DNA of 64,000 bases from Gallionella sp. (lineage in GTDB: Bacteria; Pseudomonadota; Gammaproteobacteria; Burkholderiales; Gallionellaceae). The DNA lies in the NCBI GenBank assembly GCA_003153155.1, contig PLWV01000021.1, forward strand, positions 3,557 to 67,556, read 5' to 3'. Positions 25,033 to 57,300 of the stretch are shown piece by piece. The stretch's first letter is position 1. Every line of letters starts with the position of its first letter. Under the pieces are notes generated by a model that saw nothing but the letters and a program-made list of their open reading frames with translations, had not been told where the DNA came from and ran no database searches. Made by a program: the position numbers and the translations under genes.

Positions 25033-26040
25033 TTGATTCCCTGGCTAACTGATGACACCCCATTCCCGTCTGTCGAGCGCGCTCTAAGTTCGCCTAATGG
25101 TTTGTTGGCGGCGGGCGGCGAGCTAACCGTACCGCGTCTGCTGGAAGCCTACCGCAACGGAATATTCCCGTGGTTCAATCCCGGCGAGCCCATACTGTGG
25201 TGGAGTCCGAATCCGCGCATGGTGCTGATCCCGGGTGAATTCAAGACCTCGCGCTCGCTCGCCAAAATGTTGCGCAACAGCATCCATGAAGTGCGCAACG
25301 ATACTGTTTTCGAACAGGTGATGCGTTGCTGCGCCGCTCCGCGCGCCAAAAATCGAGCCGGCCATCCCGGCACTTGGATAGGCGAAGACATGATTGCAGC
25401 GTATTGCGCACTGCATCGGCTGGGCTACGCGCATTCGGTTGAAGTATGGATGCCAAAAAAATCATTCCAGTTTCAAATCGAAGGCGAGACAAGGCGGCAA
25501 CGATCGAACGAAATGGGCAGTGCAATGAGCACGGCCATAAGTGAGCGATGTCCAGCGACTAAGCTGTCGTCTTGTGACAGCCCAGTCGAATGGCCAGTAG
25601 TTACACCAGGAAGCCAACACAGTATCGCCGATGAGTTGGAGCTGGAATTGGTTGGTGGTTTGTATGGTGTCAGTATCGGACGCATGTTCTACGGCGAATC
25701 CATGTTTAGTGACGTCAGCAACGCCTCGAAGATCGCGCTGGCGCATCTCGCCAGGCAACTTGAACGCTGGCAGTTTGGCATGATCGATTGCCAGATGAAC
25801 ACGCCCCATCTCGCCACACTCGGCGCACGCGAAATTCCGCGCAGCGAATTTATCGCTAGCCTGCAAGAATTGATACACTGTGCGCCGATAGACGAAAAAC
25901 TTTTGATGAAACCACTAGCCATTCCGCTAGGCTGTCAGCCGAGGAGCTCTTGGCCGGGCACCCGAAAGACAACAGCCAAGCGGCTGGTTATGTCCGGGCA
26001 CCCGACTGACTGGCAATTTGACCCCGATCTTTTTACATGA
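25033..26040 (+). CDS. aat: Leucyl/phenylalanyl-tRNA--protein transferase with two repeat insertions
   Basis: Transfers Leu or Phe from tRNA to proteins with N-terminal Lys/Arg, making them ClpS/ClpAP substrates. The TTG start at 25033 has AAAAGGACC upstream. Conserved blocks are [45 protein letters not shown] and [21 protein letters not shown]. At 335 aa it is about 100 residues longer than usual for two reasons. Residues about 141-204, between HSVEVW and LVGGLYG, come from a nested repeat (25464-25648). Residues about 291-323 at the C-terminus come from a second repeat (25904-25990), after which the native-looking WQFDPDLF resumes. Both insertions keep the frame and leave catalytic blocks intact, so the enzyme may still work. 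Confidence 0.93.
25464..25648 (+). repeat. Outer repeat inserted in aat, carrying a family A unit
   Basis: The terminal inverted repeats ATTCCAGTTTCAAATC and (reverse complement of the right end) ATTCCAGCTCCAACTC bound the segment, with GGCG following a few bases inside each end. It contains GAGACAAGGCG, which also occurs in the family B element at 45419-45617, and an intact family A unit at 25549-25608. It is read through in frame by aat. Confidence 0.7.
25549..25608 (+). repeat. Family A 60-bp hairpin unit inside aat (copy 1)
   Basis: Head TGTCCAG (consensus TAACCAG), stem CGACTAAGCTGTC, loop GTCTTGT, stem GACAGCCCAGTCG, and a tail AATGGC..ACCA, giving exactly 60 bases. It falls exactly on codons 173-192 of aat. 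In that frame the consensus head would be a TAA stop; this copy reads TGT instead. Confidence 0.85.
25904..25990 (-). repeat. Family A 87-bp loop-extended unit at the aat C-terminus (copy 2)
   Basis: On the minus strand: head TAACCAG, stem CCGCTTGGCTGTT, a 34-base extended loop containing CGGGTGCCCGGCC, stem GACAGCCTAGCGG, and tail ending TTTCATCA. The length, 87 bases, is a multiple of three. It is translated on the plus strand as [12 protein letters not shown]...TTAKRLV within Aat. Confidence 0.85.
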
Positions 26041-26771
26041 GCCTGCTAAACGACATCCCGCTATCCGCGCTGCATTTTTATCTGACCGCGCCCTATCCAT
26101 GCAGCTATCTGCCCGATCTGCAAGCGCGCTCGCAAGTCGCCACGCCCGCATTGCTGATCAGCACGCCGGTGTATTCAGAACTGGTGCAATGTGGCTTTCG
26201 GCGCAGCGGGACCTACACTTATCGGCCGCATTGCGATAATTGTCGCGCCTGTGTCCCGCTGCGCATATTGGCAAAACAATTCACGGCAAGTCGCTCGCAG
26301 CGGCGCGCCTGGAAGCAACACGCGCATCTCGAGGCTACGCTGCACCCGTTGCAAGACAACGCCGAATATTACGACCTCTATCAACGCTATCAGCGCACAC
26401 GCCACAAAGACGGCGGCATGGACAATGACGACCGCGAGTCGTATCAAAACTTTCTGCTGCAAAGTCATGTTGATTCGCTGCTGGTGGAATTTCGTGAGCA
26501 GGGCGTGCTGCGCATGGTCAGTGTGATCGACTTGCTCAGCGACGGTCTGTCCTCGGTGTATACCTTCTACGAGCCGGATTTGCCGCGTGCCCGCCTGGGG
26601 GTTTACAACGTGTTGTGGCAAATCGAGCTGTGTCGCAAACTCGATCTGGATTTCGTCTATCTGGGCTACTGGATAAAACACAGCCGCAAGATGGCTTACA
26701 AGACACAATACCAACCCGCGCAAGGCTTGTTGGACAGCACTTGGCAGACACTCGACAGGCCTGTGTCCTGA
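26037..26771 (+). CDS. bpt: Aspartate/glutamate leucyltransferase
   Basis: A bacterial ATE-like leucyltransferase (Bpt, sometimes called Ate) that adds Leu to N-terminal Asp/Glu, feeding the N-degron pathway together with Aat. The 244 aa start with an ATGA overlap on the aat stop. Features are the N-terminal Cys cluster [16 protein letters not shown] (with the Cys of [14 protein letters not shown]), then the core [20 protein letters not shown] and [23 protein letters not shown]. Its stop TGA (26769-26771) coincides with the TGATGAAACCAC end of a family A repeat fragment, so the repeat begins at the last codon. Confidence 0.95.
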
Positions 26772-26972
26772 TGAAACCACTGGTGAAACGACTAGCCATC
26801 CCACTAAGCAACCAGAAGACAGTTGCCAAGTGTTTGGTTATAGCCATTCGACTAAGCCATCAGCCGATGCGCTTTTGGCCGGGCACCCGAAAGGCTTTGC
26901 ATAGCCATTCGGCTAAGTCACCAAAATACGGTGACATAAGCCGCTGGTTAACGATAGCCAAGTCGCTGGTTA
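26769..26972 (-). repeat. Cluster of family A units between bpt and the next gene
   Basis: After a 12-base tail fragment there is one intact 60-bp unit at 26781-26840 (stem CCACTAAGCAACC against AGTTGCCAAGTGT, loop AGAAGAC). A truncated loop-extended unit follows (with GGCCGGGCACCCG), then a shortened unit whose stem GTCACC pairs with GGTGAC around AAAATAC (to 26950), and finally a half unit ending GCTGGTTA at 26972. The plus-strand frame stays open throughout. Confidence 0.85.
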
Positions 26973-26997
26973 TGAGCGCAGTCGAAGGAGAATCAGC

Positions 26998-27921
26998 ATG
27001 AAGACACGTTTATGCATCTTCATATTTTCGCTAGTTTTACTACCACTGGCTGGATTGCTCTTGAGCGGCAAGGAATGGAGCGAACTCTCAACTGACACCC
27101 CTGCAGCCGGCACCCCGGCCGCGGCCGAGAATATCGCCGCGATATTGCTCACCACACTGATGTTACTGGGCTATGTCTTGCTCACCAATCACACGATCAA
27201 AAGGCGTACTGGCAACAGCCCGATGAACATTCAACGCAACTACTTCTTGTGGATGGCCGCAGCGAGCGCCATGCTCGGTTGGCTGCTGGCTTACCTGAAT
27301 CTGTTCACAGCAAGTTGGCCGACAGAACAAGGCAACCCCGCCGTGCAGCTATTGCTCTACACCCCGTTGTTCGCCTTGCTGGCTCCGGCAGTGCTCAGCA
27401 CCCGCGCCTTGCTCGGCGCGTTTCCAGGACTGCTCAAACGCCTGTCGCGCGGCATATCCTTGCCGATACCCAGCGGCGAAACGCTCGCCTTCAGCCTCGT
27501 GCCTATCGCCGCGCTAGGTCTGCTGGGTGGTGCGGTATGGCCCGCGCAATTATTCTGGCTGCTGTGGATCGCACCACTGTTACTGTTGGTCGCGCTGCAA
27601 CTGCTGTGGCACGAAAGCACGATTTTCTCCGGTCTCAAATCCGGTGATTGGGGGCGCGTAATTTGCGCCGCGCTGGCTGGAATTATTGTAGGCAACTTTA
27701 CCGTGATCAGCTATCAAATGGGTGGCGGAAACCTGATCAGCAATCTGCCCAATCCGCTGTTCGCGCAATTCGGCTATGCCGTATTCGGCTTGTTGTGCCT
27801 GCAACTCGGTGATGTCGTCGCAGAAAACTGGCGCGGCAAAAAACGCAGCAACCTGTTCCAACAAAAGAAAAAATTCCCGATCCCTGTGGTCGTCAAGCCA
27901 GCCGCCATTAAGAAGCATTAA
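26998..27921 (+). CDS. Integral membrane protein of unknown function, 307 aa
   Basis: I do not recognise a family. It has about seven to eight hydrophobic segments, the first at residues 4-24 ([19 protein letters not shown]) and others near 48-64, 85-102, 118-133, 160-190, 192-205, 220-235 and 255-270. A basic cytoplasmic C-terminus ([15 protein letters not shown]) follows. The ribosome binding site GAAGGAG lies just after the repeat cluster, in GCAGTCGAAGGAGAATC, so repeat-derived sequence probably supplies it. It is followed 2 bases later by pyrD, with which it is probably cotranslated. Confidence 0.7.
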
Positions 27922-27923
27922 CC

Positions 27924-28940
27924 ATGTACCGACTGCTCCGTTCCGCGCTGTTCCAACTTGACCCGGAAACCGCCCACCATCTCACGCTTGGTGGTCTGCA
28001 AACCGCGTATTCATTGGGCTTGAGCGGCATCATCGCGCCGCGTCCGCCAGACAATCCGCGCACCGTTATGGGGCTGATTTTTCCCAATCCGGTCGGGCTA
28101 GCCGCCGGACTCGACAAGAATGGCGACTGCATAGACGGGCTTGCGGCACTCGGTTTTGGTTTCATCGAGATCGGCACCATCACCCCGCTGCCCCAGCCCG
28201 GCAACCCCAAGCCGCGCCTGTTCCGCCTGCCGCAAGCCAACGCCATCATCAACCGCATGGGCTTCAACAACGACGGCGCGGACAAGCTGATCGAGAATGT
28301 GCAGCGCGCTGACTATCGCGGTATATTGGGCATCAACATCGGCAAGAATGCCAACACGCCGATCGAAAATGCAGCGGACGATTACCTGATCTGCCTGCGA
28401 AAGGTGTATGCGCACGCCAGCTACGTCGCCGTCAACATCTCCTCGCCCAACACCAGGCATCTGCGCCAGTTGCAAGGCGAGGACGCGCTGAACGATCTGC
28501 TCAAGCCACTCAAGGCAGAACAACAAAAACTCGCCGACACGCATGGCAAATACGTGCCCATCGTTTTGAAGATCGCACCGGATATGGAAGCCGGGCAAGT
28601 CGCACAAATCGCGCGCCTGCTGATGCAACATCGCATCGACGGCGTGATCGCCACCAACACCACACTGTCACGCGAGGGCGTGGAAAACCTGCCGCATGGT
28701 GAAGAAAGCGGCGGCCTGAGCGGCGCACCAGTGCGCGACAAGTCCACCGGCGTGATCCGTCAGCTTGCTGCTGAACTGCAAGGCGCGTTGCCCATCATCG
28801 GTGTGGGTGGCATTTTGAGTGGCTCGGACGCCGCCGAAAAAATCCACGCCGGCGCGGCATTGGTACAGATATACAGCGGTTTGATTTATCGCGGTCCGGC
28901 GCTGGTAGCAGAAAGCTGTGCGGCAATCCGCGCTATCTAA
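27924..28940 (+). CDS. pyrD: Dihydroorotate dehydrogenase (quinone), class 2
   Basis: Oxidises dihydroorotate to orotate with transfer of electrons to ubiquinone, the fourth step of pyrimidine synthesis, at the inner membrane. The 338 aa have the class 2 N-terminal helical extension ([24 protein letters not shown]). FMN and substrate motifs include [49 protein letters not shown] (catalytic Ser region), KIAPDM, and [18 protein letters not shown]. The start follows the previous stop by two bases. Confidence 0.97.
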
Positions 28941-29012
28941 GTCCGCCATAAACCTGGATTGTTCATTAGCCGGTGCAGCACCAAAAATCAATGGGTGGAA
29001 TGGCTATAACCA

Positions 29013-29340
29013 TAACCAATCACTTGGCAGCTTGCTGCCTTAGTGAGATGGCTAGTTGTTTCATCAATGACTTACCCAGCGTATTTTGCTGGGTTATAAC
29101 CAACCACTTGGTTGTCGTTTTTCGGGTGCCCGGCCAAAAGTTCTTCGGCTGACAACCTGGTGGAATGGCTAGTAGTTTTATCAGTAAGATGGCTATAACC
29201 AGCCGCTTGGCCACCGTTTTTTGGTGGCATAGCGGAATGGCTATAACCAATGACTTGGATGTCGTTTTTGGACAGCCTAGTCAGATGGCTAGTAGTTCCA
29301 CCAGAGGTTTCATCAGTAGTCTCATCAGTGGTTTCATCAG
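29013..29340 (+). repeat. Tandem array of family A hairpin units
   Basis: Units in order are: 54 bp (29013-29066; stems GGCAGC/GCTGCC), a 30-bp core (29067-29096; ACCCAGC/GCTGGGT), the 87-bp loop-extended form (29097-29183; GGTTGTC/GACAACC), 48 bp (29196-29243; GCCACC/GGTGGC) and a full 60 bp (29244-29303; TGACT/AGTCA outer stem). Decayed tail pieces repeat TTTCATCAG up to 29340. All unit lengths are multiples of three, and one minus-strand frame stays open over most of it. It directly abuts the IS30 remnant. Bases 28941-29012 hold only decayed repeat. Confidence 0.85.
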
Positions 29341-29907
29341 AAGCAACGCAAGAAACGTTACGGTAAGAGAGATCGGCGCGGCATGATTCCTAACCGTCTT
29401 TCCATCGATGATCGTCCGGCCATCGTCGATGAACGTAAGAGGATTGGCGATTGGGAAGCTGATACCGTCATCGGCAAGAACCACCGGCAAGCCATCGTGA
29501 GCATCGTTGAACGCAAGACGGGATTCACACTGATCCGCAAGGTTGAGCGCAAGACTGCGCACGCAGTCAGCCAAGCGATGGTCGGGCTACTAAAGCCCTA
29601 TCAGAATAAGGTACACACCATTACTTCGGACAACGGGCGTGAATTCGCCGGGCATGAAAAAATTGCGGCAATGTTGAAGGCAGACTTCTACTTCGCTTAC
29701 CCTTGCTTATCTTGGGAGCGAGGCACCAACGAAAACACCAATGGATTAATACGGCAGTACTTCCCGAAGAACAGGGACTTCACCACGATTACACAACAGG
29801 AGATCGATACAGCGATGGAGAGACTGAACAACCGACCCAGAAAACGACTTGGATACCAGACACCCAATCAGGTATTCTTCAAGTCAGGCGTTGCACTTCA
29901 AATTTGA
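29341..29907 (+). pseudogene. IS30-family transposase, 5' truncated
   Basis: The C-terminal catalytic half of an IS30-type DDE transposase. It starts in mid-protein with KKRYGKRDRRGMIPNRLSID, then IGDWEADTVIGKN (first D), TITSDNGREFAGHE (second D) and WERGTNENTNGLIRQYFPK (catalytic E), and ends NNRPRKRLGYQTPNQVF, so all three DDE residues are present. The N-terminal helix-turn-helix region (about 150 residues) is missing; the family A array lies where it should be. After the stop, GCACTTCAAATTTGAACC looks like the right terminal inverted repeat. With no start or DNA-binding domain it is probably inactive. Confidence 0.88.
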
Positions 29908-29921
29908 ACCCGCGCCTCAAT

Positions 29922-30122
29922 TCATTTTCTGAATATCCAGAAAAGAAGCGACAGCACCAGAGAAATGATGATGCTGGTAGTGATCGGAAAGTAGAGGCTG
30001 AATCCTTTACGCTCGATATAAATATCACCTGGAAGATGACCGATGCCCAGCTTGGACAGCCAAGGCCAAGCCACTCCAACCAGGATGAAAATGATGCCAA
30101 TAATGACGAGCCACTTTGCCAT
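29922..30122 (-). CDS. DUF2905 small membrane protein
   Basis: A 66-aa protein with two membrane spans: residues 3-20 (KWLVIIGIIFILVGVAWP) and about 43-63 (FPITTSIIISLVLSLLFWIF). Between them is the DUF2905 hallmark GHLPGDIYIERKGFSLYFP. The start at 30122 (MAKWLVIIG) is chosen; in-frame codons further upstream lack family similarity. Its function is unknown. It is convergent with the transposase remnant and follows the ankyrin gene on the minus strand. Confidence 0.9.
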   Translation of the reverse strand: MAKWLVIIGIIFILVGVAWPWLSKLGIGHLPGDIYIERKGFSLYFPITTSIIISLVLSLLFWIFRK

Positions 30123-30168
30123 AATCGCTACCTCATGACAGCCTGAATAGTGGATGCGGCACAGGCTG

Positions 30169-31065
30169 CTAGCGGTTTGCGGTGAGCAGTGCCACGATCT
30201 CTTCATGCTTGTTTTTGGTGGCAAGGGTCAAGGGCGTTGTGCCATCCTGGTATTTTGTGCCGCGGTTCGCACCCTTGGCGAGCAGCAGTTTGACTACTTC
30301 GGTATGACCGTTGGCGGCGGCCTTGTGCAGTGGCGTCCAGCCGTCGTTGCTGGCGAGATTGACATCGGCGCCACCGGCAATCAGTTGCCCGGCAGTCAGC
30401 AGGTGGCCGCGTATGGCAGCTTGCAGCAGCGGTGTCCAGCCATGGTTGCTGCGTCCGTTCACATTGGCGCGTTTTTCCACGAGCAGTTTCACTATGTTGC
30501 TGTAACCGTTGAATGCGGCACAGTGCAGCGGCCCATAACCTTCCTTATTTTTGGCGCGGACGTCGGCGCCGCTGCGGATGAGAAAGATTGCAACTTCTTC
30601 CTTGCCATTTAAGGTTGATACCATCAGCGGTGTCCAGCGGTGCTCATCGCGCGTATCAATATCCACGCCGCTGCTCAGGAACAACGCAACGGCATTGCGG
30701 TCGCCCTTTTCGGCTGACTGGATGAAACCACTGGGAGAAAAAGCATAGCCTTGCTGCTCGATGGCGGCTTTTTTCGATGCTTCCACGTCGTCCCAGGGAT
30801 TAACCCCAGCCGCGCCTTGCTGTTTCTGGCTGCGTAATTTTGCGTGCACCAAGCTCAACGAGAAAATTTCGGATGCCACCTCGGGAGGGAACCCCTCTCG
30901 GGTGCTAGCGCGGTTATCAAGCATCAGCTCGGTAAAGTAATCATCAATTTCCCTTGAATGCCACAGATTAATGATACGGTTCAACACACGCGGGTACCAC
31001 TCCTCCAGATTTTTTGGGTAGAGCTTCTCTTTGCCGCCCAGCAGGCGTAACAGTTTTTCGTTCAT
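30169..31065 (-). CDS. Ankyrin-repeat protein
   Basis: Residues about 110-298 form five ankyrin repeats with the consensus G-x-TPLHxAAxxGH (RWTPLMVSTLNGKEEVA, GYGPLHCAAFNGYSNIV, GWTPLLQAAIRGHLLTA, GWTPLHKAAANGHTEVV, GTTPLTLATKNKHEEIV). The N-terminal ~100 residues (LLRLLGGKEKLYPKNLEEWYPRVLNRI) form a separate helical domain. The start at 31065 (MNEKLLRLL) is preferred; an ATG at 31116 would add 17 residues with no plausible Shine-Dalgarno. There is no signal peptide. Ankyrin repeats mediate protein binding; the partner is unknown. Confidence 0.85.
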   Translation of the reverse strand: MNEKLLRLLGGKEKLYPKNLEEWYPRVLNRIINLWHSREIDDYFTELMLDNRASTREGFPPEVASEIFSLSLVHAKLRSQKQQGAAGVNPWDDVEASKKAAIEQQGYAFSPSGFIQSAEKGDRNAVALFLSSGVDIDTRDEHRWTPLMVSTLNGKEEVAIFLIRSGADVRAKNKEGYGPLHCAAFNGYSNIVKLLVEKRANVNGRSNHGWTPLLQAAIRGHLLTAGQLIAGGADVNLASNDGWTPLHKAAANGHTEVVKLLLAKGANRGTKYQDGTTPLTLATKNKHEEIVALLTANR

Positions 31066-31261
31066 CGTAGTGGTGTGCGCGTTTATTGTCATGGTAAACC
31101 ATAATCCAATGTACAACTAATGAATGACCGCTTGTATGGTTGGAGTGGTGTTATCGGCTTTTTTCTGCAACAGTTAAGAAGTCGGGGTGGAGGGACCAAT
31201 GGCAGCATCTGCTCTCCTTGCCGGAAGCGTTGCAGGCGGCTGAGTCGCAACTGCATAAAGG

Positions 31262-31292
31262 GCAATAAAAAGCCCGCCGAAGCGGGCTGTGT
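31262..31292 (-). terminator. Terminator of the pseudopilin gene
   Basis: On the minus strand AGCCCGC pairs with GCGGGCT around TTCG and is followed by TTTTATTGC. It lies 17-47 bases after the stop of the pilin-like gene. The UUCG-type tetraloop favours a stable hairpin. Confidence 0.85.
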
Positions 31293-31308
31293 CACGCCGG
31301 GTGATTTA

Positions 31309-31962
31309 TTAAACGCCCATGCAAACGGTATAGGTTATTGCATCGCTACCTGCCACTGCGGAAAGATCAATGGCCGTTTGTTGAACCGCCATCGGGCGTG
31401 CCCCCGCGTTATTGGCGATAACTCTCATCGAACCAGTGGTGGTGTTGCCATCATCCATCTGTATATCGAGCTGTTTGGCAAACTTGCCCAATATCCCGGC
31501 AGAACAAATGACGTAAGTCCCATTAAGGTTAAGCACCGGGTTGTCGGTAACTGTGCCATTGGTAATACCGATAAGGCCACCGGCAGAATTAGTTGGCAGC
31601 AAGTCTGCGCCTGATGTAGGTCCGGGGGCCAAACCAGCGAGACGAACATCTTGCCAGAATAATTGGGTTTCATCGGTGGCGGTTGTGGAATCCCATTTTC
31701 CGTCGATGATGCCATTGCCATTGCCATTGCCGGTGGCAACCACATGGCTGACAGCCGCAACGTCATCCCCCGGTAACGCCTTGTACTTGTCCTGATAGCC
31801 GTAGATCAACACCGGGAGGTTTCTGAAATCAGTCGCAAGGTTTTTCACCCTGGCGCTGTTGATCAGTTCTTGTCCTTTCAGTACACCGCCGAGCAGCAGG
31901 CCGATAATCACCAGTACGATGGCGATTTCGATTAAGGTAAAGCCGGATTGATTGCGTTTCAT
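31309..31962 (-). CDS. Type IV prepilin-like protein (pseudopilin)
   Basis: A 217-aa protein with a prepilin leader MKRNQSG and mature start FTLIEIAIVLVIIGLLLGGVL, including the conserved E5 and the hydrophobic helix. PilD would cleave after Gly7. The rest is a globular domain rich in Gly, Asn and Thr, with a GNGNGNGIIDG loop and two Cys near the C-terminus (YVICSAG and YTVCMGV) that could form the disulfide-bonded D-region. It is transcribed alone with its own terminator, away from core pil genes. It could be a minor pilin or a pseudopilin of an envelope-spanning system. Confidence 0.87.
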   Translation of the reverse strand: MKRNQSGFTLIEIAIVLVIIGLLLGGVLKGQELINSARVKNLATDFRNLPVLIYGYQDKYKALPGDDVAAVSHVVATGNGNGNGIIDGKWDSTTATDETQLFWQDVRLAGLAPGPTSGADLLPTNSAGGLIGITNGTVTDNPVLNLNGTYVICSAGILGKFAKQLDIQMDDGNTTTGSMRVIANNAGARPMAVQQTAIDLSAVAGSDAITYTVCMGV

Positions 31963-32397
31963 TATGATAATCTCCTGTTTGTATGTGCCACGCCTGAGTT
32001 ACAGCAAGTGTTGGGCCAATGCTACATAATTCTTTTGGCTTTGTCACTCCCGCGCAGCAGAGAAGCCATTAAATCAAGCCATTCGACTGAATCAGGTCTG
32101 TCATGGCGGATTTCCTGGGATGTTCGAGAGGGACGGTGTGCGACTTGATCAGGGTGATTTTGACGAGATATTGACAGGGTGATGACGAATTTGGAGCGAA
32201 AGCTTGACCGTCTTCTTTTGGCGTAGACCTGCCATTCACTAATGTCCGAAAATGACCGAAGGAGACATTCTCGTCGAAGTCATACGACATTTTGCTGCAG
32301 CATCAACGTTCAACCAGGCCATGAAAAAAACCGAACTTAACCTTCCAATTATTGCGTTCCCTCAGCTTGCACATGCGCGTGGTGGCATACTGGAAAC
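31963..32397. other. Gene-free stretch upstream of the pilin-like gene
   Basis: The 435 bases between the pilin start and a family B element contain no convincing gene. The AT-rich part next to the pilin start may carry its promoter; CTCC at 31972-31975 reads GGAG on the minus strand, about 9 bases before the ATG. The rest has short open frames with no recognisable domain and looks like decayed sequence. Confidence 0.5.
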
Positions 32398-32604
32398 ATA
32401 TGGGAACCTCTAAAATCCAGATTTCATCCCAACTGATGGAACTACTAGCCATTCCACTAGGTCGCCAAAGAACGGCAACCAAGTGGCTGGTTATGCTGCG
32501 TTGCGTAAAAAATTTCTTGCTTGCATATAACCCATATGCGGCGCTGCGAAATTTTCCCGCGCCTTGCATTTGGGCGAACCCTGAATTTTTAGAGGTCCCC
32601 ATAT
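32398..32604 (+). repeat. Family B palindromic element (copy 3) with nested family A unit
   Basis: The ends are CATATGGGAACCTCTAAAA and (right end, reversed) CATATGGGGACCTCTAAAA. The interior has GCTGCGTTGCG and CATATGCGGCGCTGCGAA as in copies 1 and 2. A complete family A unit occupies 32434-32493. No gene lies within it. Confidence 0.82.
32434..32493 (-). repeat. Family A 60-bp unit nested in a family B element (copy 5)
   Basis: On the minus strand: head TAACCAG, stem CCACTTGGTTGCC, loop GTTCTTT, stem GGCGACCTAGTGG, tail AATGGCTAGTAGTTCCATCA. It is exactly 60 bases, with the outer stem CCACT/AGTGG where other copies have CGACT/AGTCG. Confidence 0.9.
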
Positions 32605-32687
32605 GGTGATGGCGGATAATTTATACGACAATTCGGACAGCGGCGTATTCCTGTCGCCAAGCTCATTATGCTGATAAGGAGATAAAT

Positions 32688-32774: not shown

Positions 32775-32967
32775 GTGGCCGTTGCCGGCCGGTAAGAAGC
32801 CGGCGGCGGACGGTTGTCATCCAAGCAAATCGAAGTTGCGTTGTGGGCAGATTGCCCGTGGGCGATCTCGCTTCAGCTTCGTATGAAGCGTTATCGGCGT
32901 AACCGCTTTGATCAACTATTAAATGAGGCTCATCCGTTTTTTTTGAATAATTCTGGTCAGGATAGAT

Positions 32968-45418: not shown

Positions 45419-45617
45419 GGCACCTCTATAAATTCAAAATCCTGATGAAACAACTAGCCATTCCACTAGGCCGCCAAAATACAGCAGCCAAGTGGCTGGT
45501 TATAAGTGAGACAAGGCGCGAAAGAAATTTTAGTGCGCAGCATATGATTTATATGTAAGCGATAAAATTTCTTGAGCAACACCGTATCACGACGGAGTTT
45601 GGATTTATAGAGGCGCC
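45419..45617 (-). repeat. Family B palindromic element (copy 4) with nested family A unit
   Basis: The ends GGCACCTCTATAAATTCAAA and, reversed from the right, GGCGCCTCTATAAATCCAAA form the terminal inverted repeats. The interior is itself palindromic: AAGAAATTTTA pairs with TAAAATTTCTT around a CATATG-type loop. A full family A unit sits at 45443-45502. It fills the rplY-pth gap upstream of the rplY terminator. Confidence 0.85.
45443..45502 (-). repeat. Family A 60-bp unit nested in a family B element (copy 6)
   Basis: On the minus strand: head TAACCAG, stem CCACTTGGCTGCT, loop GTATTTT, stem GGCGGCCTAGTGG, tail AATGGCTAGTTGTTTCATCA. Sixty bases exactly. In the plus frame it reads LAIPLGRQNTAAKWLV. 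Confidence 0.9.
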
Positions 45618-47574: not shown

Positions 47575-47629
47575 ATAACCTACAGCAACCACTAACAACT
47601 TACTATTCGTACGTTGGTAAGCAATCGCC

Positions 47630-49195: not shown

Positions 49196-49197
49196 CT

Positions 49198-50943: not shown

Positions 50944-51020
50944 AACAATACTGCTTTTGATGTGGGCGCACATAATAGGTTATATTTAGCCAAATTCACA
51001 ACCATGACGACCACTAGCCC

Positions 51021-51980
51021 TTGCCTAACATCACTCCCGAAATAACCCTTTCCGCACGCAACCTGACGCGCCGCTTCGGCAATCACCTGGTCATTCATAA
51101 CGTGTCGCTGGAATTGAAGCGCGGAGAAGTGCTGGGCTTGCTCGGACACAACGGCGCGGGAAAAACCACCACGCTGCAAATGCTGACCGGCTGTTTGCTG
51201 CCGAACAGCGGCGAAATCGAAATCTGCGGCATCAGTCTGTTGCGCAAACCCACGCTGGCGAAAGCGCACCTCGGCTACCTGCCGGAAACCCCGCCGTTAT
51301 ACCGCGAACTCAGCGTGAACGATTACCTGACATTTGCGGCGCGATTGCGCGGCATGGAATCCGCCGCAGTGGCCGAGGCACTGGCGCAAACCAGGCAACG
51401 CTGCGGCCTGGAAGCGGTCAGCAAAAAGATCATCGGCACCTTGTCCAAGGGTTATCAGCAACGCGTCGGCATCGCGCAAGCCATCATCCATCGTCCAGCC
51501 GTGATCGTGCTGGACGAACCCACCATCGGCCTCGACCCCGTGCAAATCCGCGGGATACGCAGCCTGATCCGCGAATTGGGCGATACGCACAGCGTGATCC
51601 TCTCCACGCATTTGCTCAGCGAAGTGGAAAGCGTCTGCGATCGCGTTGAAATCATGCAGCACGGCAAGCTGATCTATGGCGACACCAGTGCGCACATGCA
51701 GCAACACGGGAGCGTATCAGGCTTCACCATCAGCCTGCGCAACCCGCCGCCGCTGAGTGTTCTGGAAGGTATTGCCGGCATCAGCCACGTCGAGCAACTT
51801 TCCGCCACGCAGTTCCGCGTGTTGCATGCACCGGATCACAACCCCAAAGGCGAGTTGCTTACCCTGGCAGAACAACAAGGCTGGCAACTGGAACAACTCA
51901 CGCCGCTGCAAGCCACGCTGGAAGACGTGTTCGTCAAGATCACCGACACTGAAAAAAATGCTGCAGGGGAAACGAAATGA
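51021..51980 (+). CDS. ABC-2 transporter ATP-binding protein (GldA-like)
   Basis: A 319-aa ATPase: Walker A GHNGAGKTTTLQM, Q-loop with YLPETPPLY, signature LSKGYQQRVGIAQ, Walker B VIVLDEPTIGLDP, and STHLLSEV (H-loop). The start is TTG at 51021, as no ATG lies in frame. The C-terminal ~100 residues (from HGKLIYGD) are the extension common to multidrug/NosF/GldA ABC proteins. It forms a tight operon with the following permease (ATGA overlap) and the GldG-like protein. The substrate cannot be told. Confidence 0.93.
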   Translation: MPNITPEITLSARNLTRRFGNHLVIHNVSLELKRGEVLGLLGHNGAGKTTTLQMLTGCLLPNSGEIEICGISLLRKPTLAKAHLGYLPETPPLYRELSVNDYLTFAARLRGMESAAVAEALAQTRQRCGLEAVSKKIIGTLSKGYQQRVGIAQAIIHRPAVIVLDEPTIGLDPVQIRGIRSLIRELGDTHSVILSTHLLSEVESVCDRVEIMQHGKLIYGDTSAHMQQHGSVSGFTISLRNPPPLSVLEGIAGISHVEQLSATQFRVLHAPDHNPKGELLTLAEQQGWQLEQLTPLQATLEDVFVKITDTEKNAAGETK

Positions 51981-52720
51981 TCCGCCTGCTCGCCCTGCGC
52001 GAACTGCGCAGCCTGTTTGCGATGCCGTCCACCTGGTTCATCCTGGCGGTGCTGCAATTCATTTTCGCGTGGTTCTTTCTGGCGCGGCTGGAAGCATTCC
52101 TGGAAATACAACCGCAGCTTGCACAACTCGCCAATCCGCCCGGCGTGACGACCACGGTCGCCGCACCGATGTTTAACACGGTCGCGCTGCTGCTGATGAT
52201 GCTGGTGCCGATGTTTACCATGCGCCTGATCGCCGAGGAGCGCCGCAACCAAACGCTCGCGCTGCTGCTCTCGGCTCCGCTGTCCGGTCGCCACATCGTG
52301 CTTGGCAAGTTTCTGGGTTTGCTGATCTTTCTGGTCGTGCTGATGACCGGCGTGCCGCTGATGCTCTGCACCCTGGCACTCGGCACAGACCTCGATCACG
52401 GTCTGCTGTTGAGCAATATCCTCGGCCTGCTCCTGCTCACCGCCAGTTATATCGCGCTGGGGCTGTATATTTCCGCGCTCACCACACAACCCATCATCGC
52501 CGCCATCGGCGCGTTCGCGGTGCTGATCGGTTTGTGGCTGGCCGACATCGGCGCGGCGGCGGAAGATTCGCCCTGGCATTCCATCTCGCCGTTCAATCAC
52601 TTCCAAAATTTCAACAACGGCTTGCTGGATAGCAGCGATGTGGCATTCTTCGTTTTGTTCACAGCTGTCTTCCTGTTGCTGACCATGAAGCGGTTGCACA
52701 ACAACCGCAGATACGGATGA
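51977..52720 (+). CDS. ABC-2 permease (GldF-like)
   Basis: A 247-aa integral membrane protein with about six spans (around 20-42, 55-80, 100-125, 145-165, 172-195 and 220-240). The motif LALLLSAPLSGRHIVLGKFLG after RNQT is the ABC-2 coupling element. It starts with an ATGA overlap with the ATPase gene, so the two are cotranslated. It resembles the GldF permease and other gliding-associated ABC-2 permeases that occur widely in proteobacteria. Confidence 0.9.
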   Translation: MIRLLALRELRSLFAMPSTWFILAVLQFIFAWFFLARLEAFLEIQPQLAQLANPPGVTTTVAAPMFNTVALLLMMLVPMFTMRLIAEERRNQTLALLLSAPLSGRHIVLGKFLGLLIFLVVLMTGVPLMLCTLALGTDLDHGLLLSNILGLLLLTASYIALGLYISALTTQPIIAAIGAFAVLIGLWLADIGAAAEDSPWHSISPFNHFQNFNNGLLDSSDVAFFVLFTAVFLLLTMKRLHNNRRYG

Positions 52721-52723
52721 GCC

Positions 52724-54184
52724 ATGCCGCATAAATTCTCCCCCAACGGGCAAGCCCGTTCCCCTCTCCCCAACCCTCTCCCGCATGCGGGCGAGGGGGC
52801 AAACGAATCGCTGCGCGAGTTTCACATTAACCCAACCCTGCGCAATCTGCTGTTCGTATTGCTGCTGTTGGGTGCTGCGTCCGACCTGGGCTATCTCGCC
52901 ATGCATCATCATATCCAGCGCGATGTCACCTATAACGCCAGCAACAGCCTGGAACCCAGCAGTGTGGAAGTGCTCAGGCAACTGGGCGGCCCGGTCACAA
53001 TCACCGTGTATGCGACCGAACAGGACGCGCGCCTGGGCGACATACGCAAAATCATTCGCGATTTCCTGTCGCTTTATCAACGCTACAAGCTCGACATTCA
53101 ACTGGTATTCATCGACCCCGAGAAAGAAACTGAAAAAGCCCGTGCGGCGCAAATCCGCTTCAACGGCGAAATGGTGATCGAATACGCCGGGCGCAGCGAA
53201 CACCTCACCCAGATCAACGAGCAAATCGTCACCAGCACCTTGCTGCGCCTGGCACACACCCGCGATCAAACCGTGATGTATCTGGACGGGCACGGCGAAC
53301 GCAAACTGGACGGCATCGCCAACTTTGACCTCGGTTCGCTGTTCGGCGCGAAGCTCAAGCAGAATGGTTTTCACCTCGGCAGCCTTAATCTGGCACTGGC
53401 GCAGGAAGTGCCAGGCAATGCCAGCGTATTGGTGATCACCCAGCCGCAACTTGATCTCATGCCCGGCGAAGTGGACAAGCTGCTGCGCTATGTCGATCGC
53501 GGCGGCAATCTGCTCTGGCTGGTGGACGCCGAACCGCTGCACGGACTGGAACGCCTCGCCGAAAAACTGGATATACTGCTGCCGCCCGGCATCGTGATCG
53601 ACCCGGCTGCCACCGAGATGAATGCACCCGCCACCTGGTCACTGGGCGCCACTTATCCGCCTCACGCCATCACGCACAATTTCAATTTGACCACCGCCTT
53701 CCCTTCCGCACGACAGCTGCTCTGGAATGAAAACCCGGACTGGCAACACCACGTATTGGTGGAAGCCGCCGCACGCGGCTGGGTGACCAGCAAACCACCG
53801 AAAGGCAAGCCGCGCGACGGAAACCGTTTGTCCGGGCACCCGTTCGATAAGCAGCACGACACCCCCGGCCCCATTGTCATCGCGATGGCATTGCAACGCA
53901 ACATCAATGACCGCGAGCAACGCATCGTGGTCGTCGGCAACGGCGCGTTCCTCTCCAACAGTTTCGCCGGCAACGGCGGCAACGTGGACTTGGGCATGAA
54001 CATGGTGAACTGGCTTGCCGGCGAGGAACATCTCATCACACAGCAACTGCGTGCCGCAAAGGACAGCAAACTGGAGTTAAGCGCAACGCAGCTCAGGCTC
54101 ATCAGCATCAGCTTTTTGCTTGGTTTGCCGCTGATGCTGGCAGGCGTGGGAATATTTATTTGGTGGAAACGGCGCCGTGCCTGA
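52724..54184 (+). CDS. GldG-like ABC-system auxiliary membrane protein
   Basis: A 486-aa protein of the GldG/DUF4350-like group: TM about 42-60, a large extracytoplasmic region (ITVYATEQDARLGDIRKIIRDFLSLYQRY, TVMYLDGHGERKLDGI, RYVDRGGNLLWLVD), and a C-terminal TM about 461-481 followed by KRRRA. Residues about 5-25 (SPNGQARSPLPNPLPHAGEG) come from an intergenic palindrome read in frame. Residues about 358-382 (KPPKGKPRDGNRLSGHPFDK) look like another insertion, with GTCCGGGCACCCG shared with the sequence after the aat repeat. It acts with the upstream ABC pair. Confidence 0.85.
   Translation: MPHKFSPNGQARSPLPNPLPHAGEGANESLREFHINPTLRNLLFVLLLLGAASDLGYLAMHHHIQRDVTYNASNSLEPSSVEVLRQLGGPVTITVYATEQDARLGDIRKIIRDFLSLYQRYKLDIQLVFIDPEKETEKARAAQIRFNGEMVIEYAGRSEHLTQINEQIVTSTLLRLAHTRDQTVMYLDGHGERKLDGIANFDLGSLFGAKLKQNGFHLGSLNLALAQEVPGNASVLVITQPQLDLMPGEVDKLLRYVDRGGNLLWLVDAEPLHGLERLAEKLDILLPPGIVIDPAATEMNAPATWSLGATYPPHAITHNFNLTTAFPSARQLLWNENPDWQHHVLVEAAARGWVTSKPPKGKPRDGNRLSGHPFDKQHDTPGPIVIAMALQRNINDREQRIVVVGNGAFLSNSFAGNGGNVDLGMNMVNWLAGEEHLITQQLRAAKDSKLELSATQLRLISISFLLGLPLMLAGVGIFIWWKRRRA
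52747..52799. repeat. CCCTCTCCC-type palindrome in the GldG-like gene
   Basis: CCCCTCTCCCCAACCCTC followed by CCCGCATGCGGGCGAGGG is a well-known proteobacterial intergenic palindrome. Here it is translated in the N-terminus. A related one is at 54456-54518. Confidence 0.75.
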
Positions 54185-54203
54185 AAGACCGCCGCACAAC
54201 TAC

Positions 54204-54263
54204 TGATGAAACGACTAGCCATCCGACTAAGTTGTCAAACTACGCCAACTAAGTCGTTGGTTA
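54204..54263 (-). repeat. Family A 60-bp unit (copy 7)
   Basis: On the minus strand: head TAACCAA, stem CGACTTAGTTGGC, loop GTAGTTT, stem GACAACTTAGTCG, tail GATGGCTAGTCGTTTCATCA. Exactly 60 bases, with the T-T mismatch at stem position 6 as in most copies. Confidence 0.9.
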
Positions 54264-54536
54264 TGCACTTGCTGATACTGCGTTAAAAAATGGCTCAAAA
54301 TCCTCATTTACAAAACAGTAAATTCCGGTTTTTGCGAGTTGGGCGGCAACGGCAAGCCGCCCATCCCTGCCAAACCCACTTCGCCATTTTTTGTCTTGTC
54401 TCAACTGCGCTCGCTACGTTATGCGGCGGTCTTTAATCATCACTCGAACGCTATTTCGCTCCCCTCCCACACAGGTGGGGGAGAGCTTGCGAGGGGGCAG
54501 GTTGGGGGAGAGGGTCGCAAAATATCCGAGGTGCCC
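54264..54536. repeat. Repeat-filled gap upstream of mutM
   Basis: No gene is visible. Bases 54264-54415 are a degenerate element with TGCGTTAAAAAATGGCTC and, further on, GCCATTTTTTGTCTTGTCTC, forming an imperfect inverted repeat; it is a known type of degenerate dispersed sequence. Bases 54456-54518 carry a CCCTCCCACAC / GTGGGGGAGAG palindrome. Family A copy 7 abuts on the left. Any mutM promoter would be in repeat sequence. Confidence 0.7.
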
Positions 54537-55367
54537 ATGCCCGAACTCCCTGAAGTAGAAACCACGCGGCGCGGTCTGGCCGCACATCTCACCGGCCTGA
54601 CCATCACGGATGTCGTCATCCGCAACGCCAAACTGCGCTGGCCTATCCCGAAAAACTTGCCCAGGCTATTGCGCGGACGCACCATCGCCTCACTCAAGCG
54701 TCGCGCCAAATACCTGCTGATGGATTGCGGCAGCGGCAGATTGATTCTCCATCTCGGCATGTCCGGCAGTCTGCGCATCCTGCCCGCCAGCACACCGCCG
54801 GACAAACACGACCACTTCGATCTAACGCTGAGCAACGGCACGTTGATGCGGCTACGTGACCCGCGCCGCTTTGGTGCGGTGCTATGGCATACAGGTGATC
54901 CGGCTACCCACCCGCTGCTCGCGACACTCGGCCCTGAACCACTGGAAGATGGGCCGCCAGCAAACAACTTCGATGCGCGCTATCTCCATCAAGCCACGCG
55001 CGGGCGCAACGTCAGTATCAAACAATGCATCATGGACAACCACGTCGTGGTCGGCGTGGGCAACATCTACGCCAACGAAGCGTTGTTCCGCGCCGGGATC
55101 AAACCGCAACTCGCTGCCGGAAAACTCAGCCTGCCGCGTTGCGCAAAACTGGTCGCGGAAATCCGCGCGACCTTGGCCGAAGCCATCAACTTGGGCGGCA
55201 GCAGCCTGCGCGACTTTGTGAACACCTCGGGCCAACCCGGCTACTTCCAGCAGCACTATTGGGTGTACGGGCGCAGCGGCGAACCGTGCCGCCGTTGCGG
55301 TTCGCCCATCAAGCAAATCAGGCAGGGACAGCGTTCCAGTTTTTACTGCGGGAGTTGCCAAAAATAA
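54537..55367 (+). CDS. mutM: Formamidopyrimidine-DNA glycosylase
   Basis: Removes 8-oxoguanine and FaPy lesions. ATG at 54537 gives [18 protein letters not shown], with the essential P2 and E3; the open frame to 54339 is repeat sequence. The catalytic-loop Lys is in LKRRAKYLL, with HLGMSG and RDPRRFG. The DNA-binding region has [25 protein letters not shown]. The C-terminal zinc finger reads CRRCGSP...FYCGSC. All 276 residues fit the family. Confidence 0.97.
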
Positions 55368-55369
55368 AA

Positions 55370-55395
55370 GCCGCGCAAAACTTTGCGCGGCTTCA
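55370..55395 (+). terminator. Probable mutM terminator hairpin
   Basis: GCCGCGCAAAA pairs with TTTTGCGCGGC nearly perfectly around a two-base loop, 3 bases after the mutM stop. Only a short TTC follows, so strength is uncertain. Confidence 0.65.
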
Positions 55396-55450
55396 ATATC
55401 AAGTCTAAACAAAAACGAACAACCTCTAATTCTCAACCGGCCGCCAACCG

Positions 55451-55615
55451 TTAAGCCGATTTCATCATGCCTTTAAGCTGTTGGTCTGTTGCGTTCATAT
55501 CATGCTTTTCCTTGGCATGCTTTCTGGCGATATCAAGCACTTCCTTTTCATCGTGGCTCTGTACGACAAAGCCGCATTTCGGATCACACTCAATCCTTTT
55601 TAGGTCATTACTCAT
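55451..55615 (-). CDS. DUF1059 small protein
   Basis: A 54-residue protein preceded by a perfect Shine-Dalgarno, AGGAGGTGA, spaced 7 bases from ATG at 55615. It starts MSNDLKRIECDPKCGFVVQS and continues HDEKEVLDIARKHAKEKHDM, with two Cys (CDPKC) and a His-rich helix, the DUF1059 signature. Function is unknown; small size and Cys/His content suggest metal binding or stress. It is convergent with mutM. Confidence 0.85.
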   Translation of the reverse strand: MSNDLKRIECDPKCGFVVQSHDEKEVLDIARKHAKEKHDMNATDQQLKGMMKSA

Positions 55616-55905
55616 TTTAATTCACCTCCTGCCGATAAATTCGAAACGACAAGTGACGATTTTGTTGGCCACTACATTCTGTTTAGAGTTACCAGAAAAT
55701 GTGAGACCATGATACACATAACCAAGTATTATTGTCAAGTAATTGGGGTCGTATGAAAAGGGTCCGCGCAGGATGCACTAGCACTGCGTAATGCGCCAAA
55801 GACAGGCAGCTTCCCAAGCGTCTTACGAGCTTGAGTTGTGACACTGCCGAATATTGGTTTCTTAATGTGGCACAATACGTTCGTACCTACCCCACAGGAG
55901 GAAAC

Positions 55906-56082
55906 ATGAAATACATCTTGCTCGCCGTCGTACTGTTGCTCACTGCGTGTGACAACTCATCCACAGTGCCTAAAATAGCCGCACCGCAACGTGAAGCGCT
56001 TGAAAAGGCCAAGGGCGTGGATCAGGCTGTGCAAAAAGAAACTGAGGAATCGAAGAAGAAAATCGAGGATGCGGAAAAGTAA
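55906..56082 (+). CDS. Small putative lipoprotein
   Basis: Fifty-eight residues. ATG at 55906 with AGGAGG upstream begins MKYILLAVVLLLTACDNSS, with lipobox LTAC. The mature ~40 residues are highly charged (EALEKAKGVDQAVQKETEESKKKIEDAEK) and helical. The Asp after the Cys could favour retention at the inner membrane by the usual +2 rule. Similar small lipoproteins are common in betaproteobacteria; the role is unknown. Confidence 0.8.
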   Translation: MKYILLAVVLLLTACDNSSTVPKIAAPQREALEKAKGVDQAVQKETEESKKKIEDAEK

Positions 56083-56090
56083 TCTGCATC

Positions 56091-56215
56091 AATTCCGTTC
56101 GCCCTGAGCTTGTCGAAGGGTTAGCCGTACCAATTGATTGATATAGATTTAATCCGATCATGGTTCGACAGGCTCACACCACAGGGTGCGAGAACCTCTG
56201 CGAGGCCACGAACGG
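56091..56215. repeat. Palindrome with a nested 29-bp twin-hairpin insertion
   Basis: CCGTTCGCCCTGAGCTTGTC and AAGGG at the left and TGGTTCGACAGGCTCAC at 56161-56177 are the CCTGAGC/GTCGAAGG palindrome. Its continuation CACGAACGG appears only at 56207-56215, after a 29-bp insertion consisting of two small hairpins: CACC-ACA-GGTG (with the neighbouring G) and CCTC-TGC-GAGG. Confidence 0.7.
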
Positions 56216-56252
56216 ATTAAAACGGCGTTTCTCTAAGCTCAGCCTGATTATT

Positions 56253-57095
56253 ATGCCCGTCATGACCCGCCGCTTACTCGCCATCGCCCTGCTCGCTGTT
56301 ATACTCGCGCCTGTTGCTCACGCCGGGCAGTTGCCGCGCCCAGATCATATCGTGGTGGTGATCGAGGAAAATCGCGGCTATGCGCAGATTATGGATAAGC
56401 GCAACAGCGCTTCCTACATCCACGCGCTGGCGAAACGCGGGGCGTTGTTCACAGAGTCTTATGGTGTGTCGCATCCGAGCCAGCCTAACTATCTGGCCTT
56501 GTTTTCCGGCTCTACACAGGGCATCACCAGCAATGCCTGCCCCAACACTTTCGACTCGGACAACCTTGCGACGCGGCTGCTGGATAGCGGATTGAGCTTT
56601 GCCAGCTTTGCCGAATCGTTGCCCGCAACGGGCGATGTGAGCTGCATGTCTGGTGCCTATCAACGCAAGCATAATCCTGTGACGAACTGGCAAGGCACAC
56701 GATTCCCCACTGAGGTAAACAAGCGCTTTGCCGATTTTCCGCAGGATTTTTCCAGGCTACCCACCATCTCTTTCGTCATCCCGGACCAGGATAACGACAT
56801 GCACGATGGCAGTTTTGAAGCGGCGGACGATTGGCTGAAAACGCGCATCGCGCCCTATGCAGACTGGGCGATGAAACACAACAGCTTATTGATACTCACT
56901 TGGGATGAGGATGACAATCACGAAGGCAATCATGTGGTGACGATACTGGTGGGTCCGATGGTGAAAGCGGGTAAGAGTGCGCAACGCATCAACCACTACA
57001 ACGTGTTGCGCACGCTGCTCGACTTTTACAACCTGCCTGCGCTCGGCGCGAGCCATGATGCGGAAGCGATCAATGGCGTTTGGGAAAAACGCTAA
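56253..57095 (+). CDS. Secreted phosphoesterase (acid phosphatase family)
   Basis: ATG at 56253 begins MPVMTRRLLAIALLAVILAP with a signal peptide cut after VAHA; the upstream in-frame ATG at 56160 lies in the repeat. The 280 aa have the PF04185 motifs HIVVVIEENRGYAQI, SYGVSHPSQPNYLALFSG, and LILTWDEDDN. The family includes phospholipase C and acid phosphatases. No neighbours suggest a substrate. The C-terminus AINGVWEKR is complete. Confidence 0.9.
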   Translation: MPVMTRRLLAIALLAVILAPVAHAGQLPRPDHIVVVIEENRGYAQIMDKRNSASYIHALAKRGALFTESYGVSHPSQPNYLALFSGSTQGITSNACPNTFDSDNLATRLLDSGLSFASFAESLPATGDVSCMSGAYQRKHNPVTNWQGTRFPTEVNKRFADFPQDFSRLPTISFVIPDQDNDMHDGSFEAADDWLKTRIAPYADWAMKHNSLLILTWDEDDNHEGNHVVTILVGPMVKAGKSAQRINHYNVLRTLLDFYNLPALGASHDAEAINGVWEKR

Positions 57096-57102
57096 CCAGA
57101 TG

Positions 57103-57300
57103 CAGGAGCAGGTCCTGCGTGTGTTGTTGGGGCTTCAGCCCCTTACAACCACGGCGTACCTCTTGCGGGTGCTGCCCGCGATATTAGAGATGCCTACGGG
57201 CCGCTTCGACAGGCTCATAACCAGCGACTTGGCTATCGTCTTTTGATAGCCTAGTCGAATGGCTAGTAGTTCCATCAGGACAGGCACGGCCCGCTCCTAC
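57103..57300. repeat. REP-like palindrome and family A copy 8
   Basis: GCAGGAGCAGGTCCTGC and GGGGCTTCAGCCCC are REP-like hairpins; CGGCCCGCTCCTACATTTTTT closes the segment. Within it, CCGCTTCGACAGGCTCA (57201-57217) is interrupted by the family A unit and resumes as GGACAGGCA (57278). Confidence 0.75.
57218..57277 (+). repeat. Family A 60-bp unit (copy 8), with an identifiable empty site
   Basis: Head TAACCAG, stem CGACTTGGCTATC, loop GTCTTTT, stem GATAGCCTAGTCG, tail AATGGCTAGTAGTTCCATCA: 60 bases. Flanks match the unoccupied sequence at 63440-63465, in ftsE, exactly on both sides. Confidence 0.95.

Follow-up and report, generated by a model that had tools for sequence, protein, structure and literature searches.

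The nearest known kinds of repeat to the element described here are the Rickettsia palindromic elements (RPEs) and the small dispersed repeats (SDRs) of cyanobacteria. The SDRs, said to have been described by Elhai in 2008 with lengths of 21–27 nucleotides (nt), are reportedly very small mobile hairpins that carry compensatory mutations, nest in one another, belong to one lineage and have no known mover. The present element occurs in a 64,000-nt stretch of Gallionella sp. DNA (GenBank assembly GCA_003153155.1, contig PLWV01000021.1, positions 3,557 to 67,556 of the forward strand), hereafter the window. It is a hairpin of 54–60 nt that is real, mobile, structurally constrained and protein-inserting. 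As SDRs are generally understood, the element is SDR-like in its compensatory structure, its nested and precise insertion and its restriction to one lineage. It differs from them in its length, its 12-nt single-stranded tail and its residence in protein-coding genes. RPEs are reportedly kept by sequence, whereas the stems here are copy-specific and covary. The A|G target, the use of other palindromic repeats as targets and the bacterial class also set the element apart from RPEs. The likeness is that both are small palindromic mobile repeats lying in frame in unrelated genes, where they add a peptide insert; RPEs are about 150 bp long in the account given in part of PMC10969869. The same account considers a similar process conceivable in other prokaryotes. 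Precise insertion in another repeat, HIP1, is recorded for SDR5 in a section of PMC4390886. The element is set beside RPEs by description, not by sequence.

Three other systems are comparable in part. IS200/IS605 insertion sequences move without target duplication. Mitochondrial double-hairpin and repetitive hairpin elements differ from the present element in their organelle genomes and in the absence of a tail, and we know of no case in which they reside in coding sequence. They resemble it as dispersed hairpins without target duplications, as described in part of PMC2800124. The resemblance to IS200/IS605 ends lies in strand-specific hairpin recognition, a mismatched base and a T in the loop (in the relevant section of PMC8266576). 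Unlike IS200/IS605, the element has no pair of ends and no gene, and the single hairpin is the whole element. The REP, BIME and REPIN families, served by TnpA-REP, are also short, high-copy mobile hairpins with conserved mismatches and a CT cut site on one strand, and they need a tag and a Y1 transposase partner (PMC8266576 and PMC3733652, in the sections on these families). Neither a GTAG or CGTC tag nor a linked Y1 gene was found for the present element, and its stem sequence is not kept.

Structure and covariation

On the strand that reads TAACC...CATCA, the element begins with a foot in which TAACCA pairs with TGGCTA. A G·A step leads into an outer stem of five pairs, and a T·T mismatch separates this from an inner stem of seven pairs with a T-rich loop; a 12-nt tail, GTNGTTNCAYCA, follows the hairpin. 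On its 3' side the foot reads RATGGCTA, and its pairing with TAACCA leaves an A·C mismatch that is nearly invariant. The TAACCA foot starts all 25 aligned copies and sits at the 5' insertion junction. Lengths are 54, 57 or 60 nt in 210 of 242 copies, and the 54-nt subtype has a short loop.

A preliminary description of the window, made from its letters, listed seven copies. All seven coordinates carry the 60-nt element, four of them (26781, 32434, 45443 and 54204) on the minus strand. Several details of that description are revised here. Its head, TAACCAG, stands except at position 7, which is G or A (TAACCAA at 29244, 26781 and 54204), and in the copy at 25549, which has TGTCCAG. What it called a 20-nt tail is the 8-nt hairpin foot RATGGCTA plus the true 12-nt tail. 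The loop GTNTTTT is common but is not a rule, as 54-nt (18-codon) copies and other loop types occur. The stem ACCCAGC/GCTGGGT is present but belongs to a copy at about 29007–29096 that is split by another copy.

The preliminary description also held that the fold is conserved rather than the stem sequence, and the alignments bear this out. The covariance model, R1, was built from 25 distinct copies picked by their conserved ends alone, with no pairing criterion. In this alignment, 97.2% of stem cells pair and 10 of 17 pairs change on both sides. Double-changed cells number 55; shuffles give 16.8, and slid structures 7 at most. Among 155 distinct copies from many genomes, again taken with no pairing criterion and including a few rows in the wrong register (e.g., window 29007), 96.5% of stem cells pair. 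There are 316 double-changed cells in this set, compared with a shuffled mean of 94.8 (maximum 126 in 200 shuffles) and at most 66 in slid structures. A nonredundant set of 41 copies, which differ from one another at 6 or more of 48 nt, gives 93.3% pairing and 97 double-changed cells against 29 when shuffled and 6 when slid by one column. An absence of excess compensatory change, the outcome that had been named as refuting, did not appear. Kinship among copies is handled in these counts by slides and thinning, not by a tree.

Mismatches are conserved along with the pairs. In a set of 167 distinct hairpins, selected for a minimum of 8 Watson-Crick pairs out of 12 and with pair counts that therefore lean towards pairing, the A·C mismatch (A3·C46) is kept in 164 and the T·T mismatch (T13·T35) in 159. 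The T·T mismatch reported in the preliminary description is thus real. By corrected mutual information, stem pairs make up seven of the top eight column pairs, and the fifth is column 7 with column 41. This column pair alternates between G·A (131 of 167) and A·G (29 of 167), a purine-purine swap. Within the stems, G·T is found 101 times and A·C 18 times among the 167 hairpins, and 30 and 8 times in the nonredundant 41. Given this excess of G·T over A·C, the strand that must fold is probably TAACC...CATCA. Folded as single-stranded DNA, the copy at 57218 gives -13.7 kcal/mol (z -6.1), against -12.2 kcal/mol (z -4.2) for the opposite strand, and the given strand is again better than its complement in two further copies. 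One strand is constrained to fold, with covarying pairs, defined mismatches that are kept, and G·T tolerated but A·C only rarely.

Complementary arms can also arise without selection, since quasipalindrome correction by template switching copies one arm onto the other. Such arm-to-arm copying is a very unlikely source of the covariation here. It would leave neither T13·T35 nor A3·C46 mismatched in nearly every hairpin, a swap from G7·A41 to A7·G41 is impossible by Watson-Crick copying, and the ratio of G·T to A·C is 101 to 18. Capture of the inner stem from neighbouring repeats was considered as well, as CCCGCTTGCGGG is also found in target repeats. The same 54-nt subtype occurs at many unrelated sites, so local capture is not needed.

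Insertion sites

The element is mobile, as the preliminary description had proposed, and its insertions are precise. Copies in or beside other copies were dropped for these analyses, which reduced 259 copies to 121 for junctions and 242 to 116 for reading frames and left 127 for empty sites. When the two flanks are joined, the join matches other sequence without a gap over the junction in 48 of 127 insertions. Joins altered by -1, +1, -2, +2 and +3 bases match in 5, 5, 1, 1 and 0 of 127, respectively, and swapped flanks match in 2. As real joins match and altered joins hardly do, insertion is exact, and target bases are neither duplicated nor lost. The target-site duplication of a classical miniature inverted-repeat transposable element is accordingly not seen in these 127 insertions.

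The junction is A|G, with A at -1 in 112 of 121 copies and G at +1 in 108 of 121. Empty sites are often palindromic repeats, for example CCCGCTTGCGGGA|GAGGG and TTCGACAAGCTCA|GGGCGAACGG. Joined sites fold below -8 kcal/mol in 40% of cases, compared with 26% for sequence 80–400 nt away (rank test, p 0.015). Other dispersed repeats, with TTTTTAGAGGTGCC-like ends, are repeatedly used as targets (window 32400–32520; loci L042, L005, L013, L066 and L068).

The element also enters its own copies, at ATGGCTA|G, TTA|GTC, CCA|ATG and CATCA|G. An insertion at ATGGCTA|G is expected to yield two consecutive hairpins and then two tails, and extra 12-nt tails are seen. Two or more tails follow 16 of 28 hairpins that lie directly behind the foot of another copy (one mismatch allowed in that foot), but only 12 of 221 others (Fisher p 8e-11). 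Among the 12 exceptions within the 28, 7 follow AGGGCTA or ACGGCTA, which for the most part look like non-element sequence. The precise A|G insertion into palindromic repeats, the nesting and the in-frame residence in genes had been missed in the preliminary description.

Residence in protein-coding genes

The open reading frame (ORF) at 25033–26040 of the window matches leucyl/phenylalanyl-tRNA-protein transferases (aat). Residues 135 and 136 of the Aat structure in the PDB are adjacent where the ORF has 62 extra residues (141–202), and the element encodes residues 173–192 of these. In locus L183, the aat match covers 282 query residues over 216 codons and is without the insert. Residues 290–325 of the ORF derive from a second, composite copy (tblastn match to 29080–29187). 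A further dispersed repeat, GAGTGAGCGA...GGAAGCCAACACAGT, seems to surround the element within the aat insert (window 25500–25660; also L004 and L071), and the 62-residue insert may therefore be a nest of repeats.

Other genes carry the element in the same manner. Long open frames on the two sides of a non-nested copy (at least 90 codons before and at least 60 after) join into a single host frame in 44 rows and fail to do so in 38; chance would give about one to two. With no copy counted twice, 40 of the 116 non-nested copies are in host frames that run on continuously for at least 200 codons in all, and the element is open in 33 of the 40. This fraction is 30 of 33 at 300 codons, 26 of 27 at 400 and 18 of 18 at 500. 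About three of the six consensus phases hold stops, so a random phase would close roughly half of the copies. Copies in long genes are nearly all in phases that leave the gene open and are therefore 18–20-residue inserts in the encoded proteins. In the commonest phase, the peptide is DETTSHSTRLSKDDSQVAGY or a relative of it.

By a coarse gene call, 73 copies lie inside predicted frames, many of which turned out to be real genes. Nineteen host frames, picked for length, were searched against Pfam. They include MutS in the genome of the window and in genome G035, and CysS, LeuS, MetG, ValS, PurL, Mfd and NuoG in relatives. Further host frames match a LysA-like decarboxylase, an RNB-domain nuclease, GlnD, HsdM, an HsdR-like helicase, a RecB-like helicase, a PD40 protein, a transporter and a CobD/CbiB-like protein, and one match is weak. 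In CysS, LeuS and MutS, solved structures have the segments on either side of the insert next to each other, or almost. The NuoG alignment is broken at the insert with an imprecise boundary. The LeuS copy is 59 nt long, is in frame only with the rest of its insert and falls outside the 40. In several genes, the element lies within a host palindromic repeat that is in frame too. In genes such as mfd, purL and mutS (L209, L087, L037, L078 and L080), target palindromic repeats of the CCCTCTCCC...GGGAGAGGG and TTCGACAAGCTCAGGGCGAACGG types are in frame, and these may also be protein-inserting palindromes.

With in-frame copies in unrelated genes, the family is RPE-like in the general sense of a protein-coding palindromic element. 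We infer that the insert peptides are translated and do no harm. The family extends in-frame palindromic insertion, of which Rickettsia is the best-known case, to iron-oxidising betaproteobacteria, in genes that include mutS, cysS, leuS, metG and valS, whose inserts are of known origin and sequence and can be tested for effect. Inserts of 18–20 residues are to be expected when genomes or protein families of this group are annotated or analysed.

The preliminary description left room for an RNA element, and this proposal gained no positive support. A terminator, a 3' untranslated stem or another functional RNA would be a stable stem-loop and mostly intergenic, as the copies in the window are. 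Of 115 copies placed by the coarse gene call, 40 point the same way as both neighbouring genes and 42 the opposite way to both (other classes, 12 and 21), so there is no orientation preference. No Rfam family matches the copies at gathering thresholds, and a relaxed threshold gives only one 9-bit, chance-level match at 57150–57340. A functional RNA that is not mobile DNA would also have to account for copies inside coding genes and for the empty sites. It is extremely improbable.

Distribution

The genome of the window (2.75 Mb, 30 contigs, 95% complete) has at least 162 R1 matches at E up to 0.01, from 150 scored of 1392 first-look candidates. The tail pattern, with up to two mismatches, occurs at 230 places in this genome, compared with 4 for a reversed control. 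A search of relatives with the covariance model, as the preliminary description had suggested, found matches in 103 of 120 genomes of the family, taken to be Gallionellaceae, with up to 45 candidates scored per genome. Complete relatives have 11 to 34 matches. Among the matches listed, names are mostly Gallionella, Gallionellaceae, Gallionellales, Sideroxydans, Ferrigenium and Nitrosomonadales. Some bins in that list are labelled Sulfuricella, Thiobacillus, Hydrogenophilus, Gammaproteobacteria or Proteobacteria, and one chance hit is in Saccharibacter. Genomes G068, G080 and G118, of the same genus, have no element match, and copy number therefore changes fast.

Outside the family, 4 of 368 other genomes from the class have a match, one each, and two of these are weak at 41–42 bits. 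One of the strong matches, in L276, is likewise at A|G within a palindromic repeat and lies downstream of a putative greA frame. A copy above 23 bits is present in only two, L271 and L259, of the 17 IMG/VR contigs that show the tail pattern. L271 repeats the context of L026 in the genome of the window and may be chromosomal. Among the open-licence papers listed for repeats in Gallionella and Gallionellaceae, none reports such an element.

Proposed mechanism and candidate enzymes

The explanation favoured here, with somewhat better than even confidence, is a very small non-autonomous mobile hairpin that moves as folded single-stranded DNA and depends on a structure-recognising enzyme acting in trans. 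The element would fold as a single DNA strand, and the enzyme would cut the folded strand and join it exactly at A|G in palindromic repeats or in the element's own copies. This mode is likened to that of IS200/IS605 ends and REP hairpins. Natural selection would then remove insertions that break genes. The mismatches and the T-rich loop resemble features contacted by single-stranded DNA transposases, as set out in part of PMC8266576.

A stronger form of this reading is offered tentatively. The single 54–60 nt hairpin, recognised by shape, may be a complete mobile element, moved by an undescribed strand-transferring enzyme that is not a Y1 transposase, Y2 transposase, integron integrase or reverse transcriptase and that uses hairpins as landing sites. 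Because the usual lengths are multiples of three and the complement has an open frame, such an element may keep adding modules of 18–20 residues to essential proteins across the family.

Several results weigh against the favoured explanation. No mobiliser was found by association among Y1 transposases, IS91-type Y2 transposases, integron integrases and reverse transcriptases. The preliminary description had proposed recognition by an unknown transposase, and several candidate kinds fail to track the element. Around the longer Y1 genes (labelled RAYT-like by length alone), 20 stretches are without the element. It is found at 1 of 33 Y1 loci, only L116, and at 0 of 7 further Y1 loci (L003 is already among the 33). 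The complete genome G044 has 28 matches and no Y1 gene even at E of 10, and no REP-type GTAG or CGTC tag precedes the hairpin. A replication-strand bias, expected for a lagging-strand single-stranded DNA mechanism, is not significant in four complete genomes (39 versus 58, p 0.067). Some arrays have more tails than hairpins, which requires hairpin loss or slippage. Many loci were chosen by best model score or exact tail pattern and are not a random sample. The excess of G·T could partly reflect C-to-T mutation bias or shared descent, as 43 of the 101 are at one pair. Because old copies may outlive their enzyme and drafts may miss one, the enzyme exclusions are by weight.

The Y1 results bear equally on a REP family moved by a RAYT/TnpA-REP transposase that has since been lost from some genomes. 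Y1 genes are present in 91 of the 120 family genomes, with three in the genome of the window, and the element is likewise a hairpin with mismatches. TnpA-REP cuts at CT, as stated in part of PMC8266576, and the A|G junction reads C|T on the complementary strand. Apart from the missing tag and the Y1 loci without flanking copies, the main difficulty is distribution. Y1 genes occur in 15 of 17 genomes without an element match and in 76 of 103 with a match, and at E up to 10 there is no Y1 match in 8 of 12 element-bearing genomes that were re-searched. A REP family of this kind is unlikely.

Reverse transcriptases bear on retroposition, in which the element would be copied through structured RNA. 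This route has been proposed for Allomyces hairpin elements and, reportedly, for cyanobacterial SDRs. Precise insertion without target duplication, compensating structure and nesting are all compatible with it. Part of PMC2800124 uses missing flanking duplications as an argument for the RNA route in Allomyces. PF00078 reverse transcriptases are found in 57 of 120 genomes but not in the genome of the window or in G044, nor in G056, G062, G074, G088 and G096, which are all rich in element matches. The orientation of the copies to flanking genes is balanced. Retroposition is distinctly unlikely.

Integron integrases, like the proposed enzyme, recognise folded single strands, and what is conserved in attC sites is structure, not sequence. 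The element could be envisaged as a mini-cassette that such an integrase moves. Integrases over the TIGR02249 cut-off are present in 67 of 120 family genomes, including that of the window. The presence of the integrase does not track the element. Many element matches are found without an integron integrase over the cut-off in G044, G035, G004, G011, G069, G081 and G097, and an integrase is present without an element match in G007, G008, G039, G047, G051, G064 and G076. No element lies near the six integrase genes that were checked. The junction is A|G in nearly all copies; attC recombination is described at a conserved GTT core site. The integron reading is highly improbable. One of the six integrase loci, L367, has an Rfam AAC_AAD_leader/attI match.

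IS91-type Y2 transposases occur in 36 of 120 genomes and not in G044. A tyrosine recombinase of about 303 amino acids recurs within about 1 kb of an IS91-type Y2 transposase (G081:C38, G065:C55, G069:C1, G096:C1 and others). Tails without a hairpin and heads without a foot were examined for an autonomous parent, and none was seen to span a transposase, although the spans were not searched for protein families. These outliers look like nested or short loop insertions, deletions, masked bases or chance matches. The enzyme is probably none of the tested kinds: Y1, Y2, integron integrase or reverse transcriptase. The mover of the smallest bacterial repeats is a long-open question, and this family offers a tractable case because its 162 or more matches in one genome are accompanied by exact empty sites, an A|G target, a prediction of the active strand and a list of enzyme kinds whose presence does not follow that of the element.

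Copies in the window

R1 has 12 matches in the window. The best copy (57218..57277, plus strand, 88.3 bits) is inserted in the target ...CGACAGGCTCA|GGACAGG.... Two full copies on the minus strand lie between genes assigned by Pfam. The first (45443..45502, 85.9 bits) has the peptidyl-tRNA hydrolase gene on one side and the ribosomal protein L25 gene on the other, and its empty site is matched in L092 and L176. The second (54204..54263, 79.8 bits) is between the genes for an ABC-transport-auxiliary-domain protein and formamidopyrimidine-DNA glycosylase. Another full copy on the minus strand (32434..32493, 84.7 bits) is in a different dispersed repeat with the target ...CGCAGCA|GTTGGGATG..., for which an empty site is matched in L243.

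Two copies are in frame in the aat ORF. The diverged copy inside aat (25549..25608, plus strand, 64.5 bits) is the one that encodes residues 173–192, and it reads TGT where the consensus has TAA. The other (25904..25990, minus strand, 72.8 bits) is in the C-terminal part and has a hairpin of a second family, family B, in its loop.

A full copy (26781..26840, minus strand, 74.6 bits) interrupts, at ATGGCTA|G, the copy that starts at 26972 and, by tail count, is followed by two 12-nt tails. A variant with the tail TGCAAAGC (26902..26950, minus strand, 46.8 bits over positions 1–48) lies in the loop of another copy. On the plus strand, a 54-nt short-loop copy (29013..29066, 60.3 bits) is inserted at CCA|ATGACTT of another copy, and a copy with a family B hairpin in its loop follows at 29097..29183 (67.2 bits). 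The hairpin at 29196..29243 (plus strand, 56.8 bits over positions 1–48) has its tail displaced by the next insertion, a full copy at its ATGGCTA|G (29244..29303, plus strand, 77.6 bits). This last copy is followed by four tandem 12-nt tails that reach about 29339.

The nested variant, mostly with the tail TGCAAAGC, occurs in the loops of other copies at GT|CTTTT (window 26902–26950; L005, L013, L024, L033 and L041), and L041 holds a triple nest. In L241 (minus strand, about 3.3 kb along) and L252 (about 300–430), the loop of the nested variant has an extra insert of ~40 nt that contains GAGTTGGGCATAAAGCCGCCC.

Family B is a second family of small hairpins, with the core GGGTGCCC GG.CA..AAAGTTTTTCG. 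It sits in element loops and also serves as an element target. It is found in the window at about 25893–25990, 26842–26901 and 29120–29160, and in L036, L047, L056, L057 and L074. Its outer stem seems to be copy-specific and still complementary.

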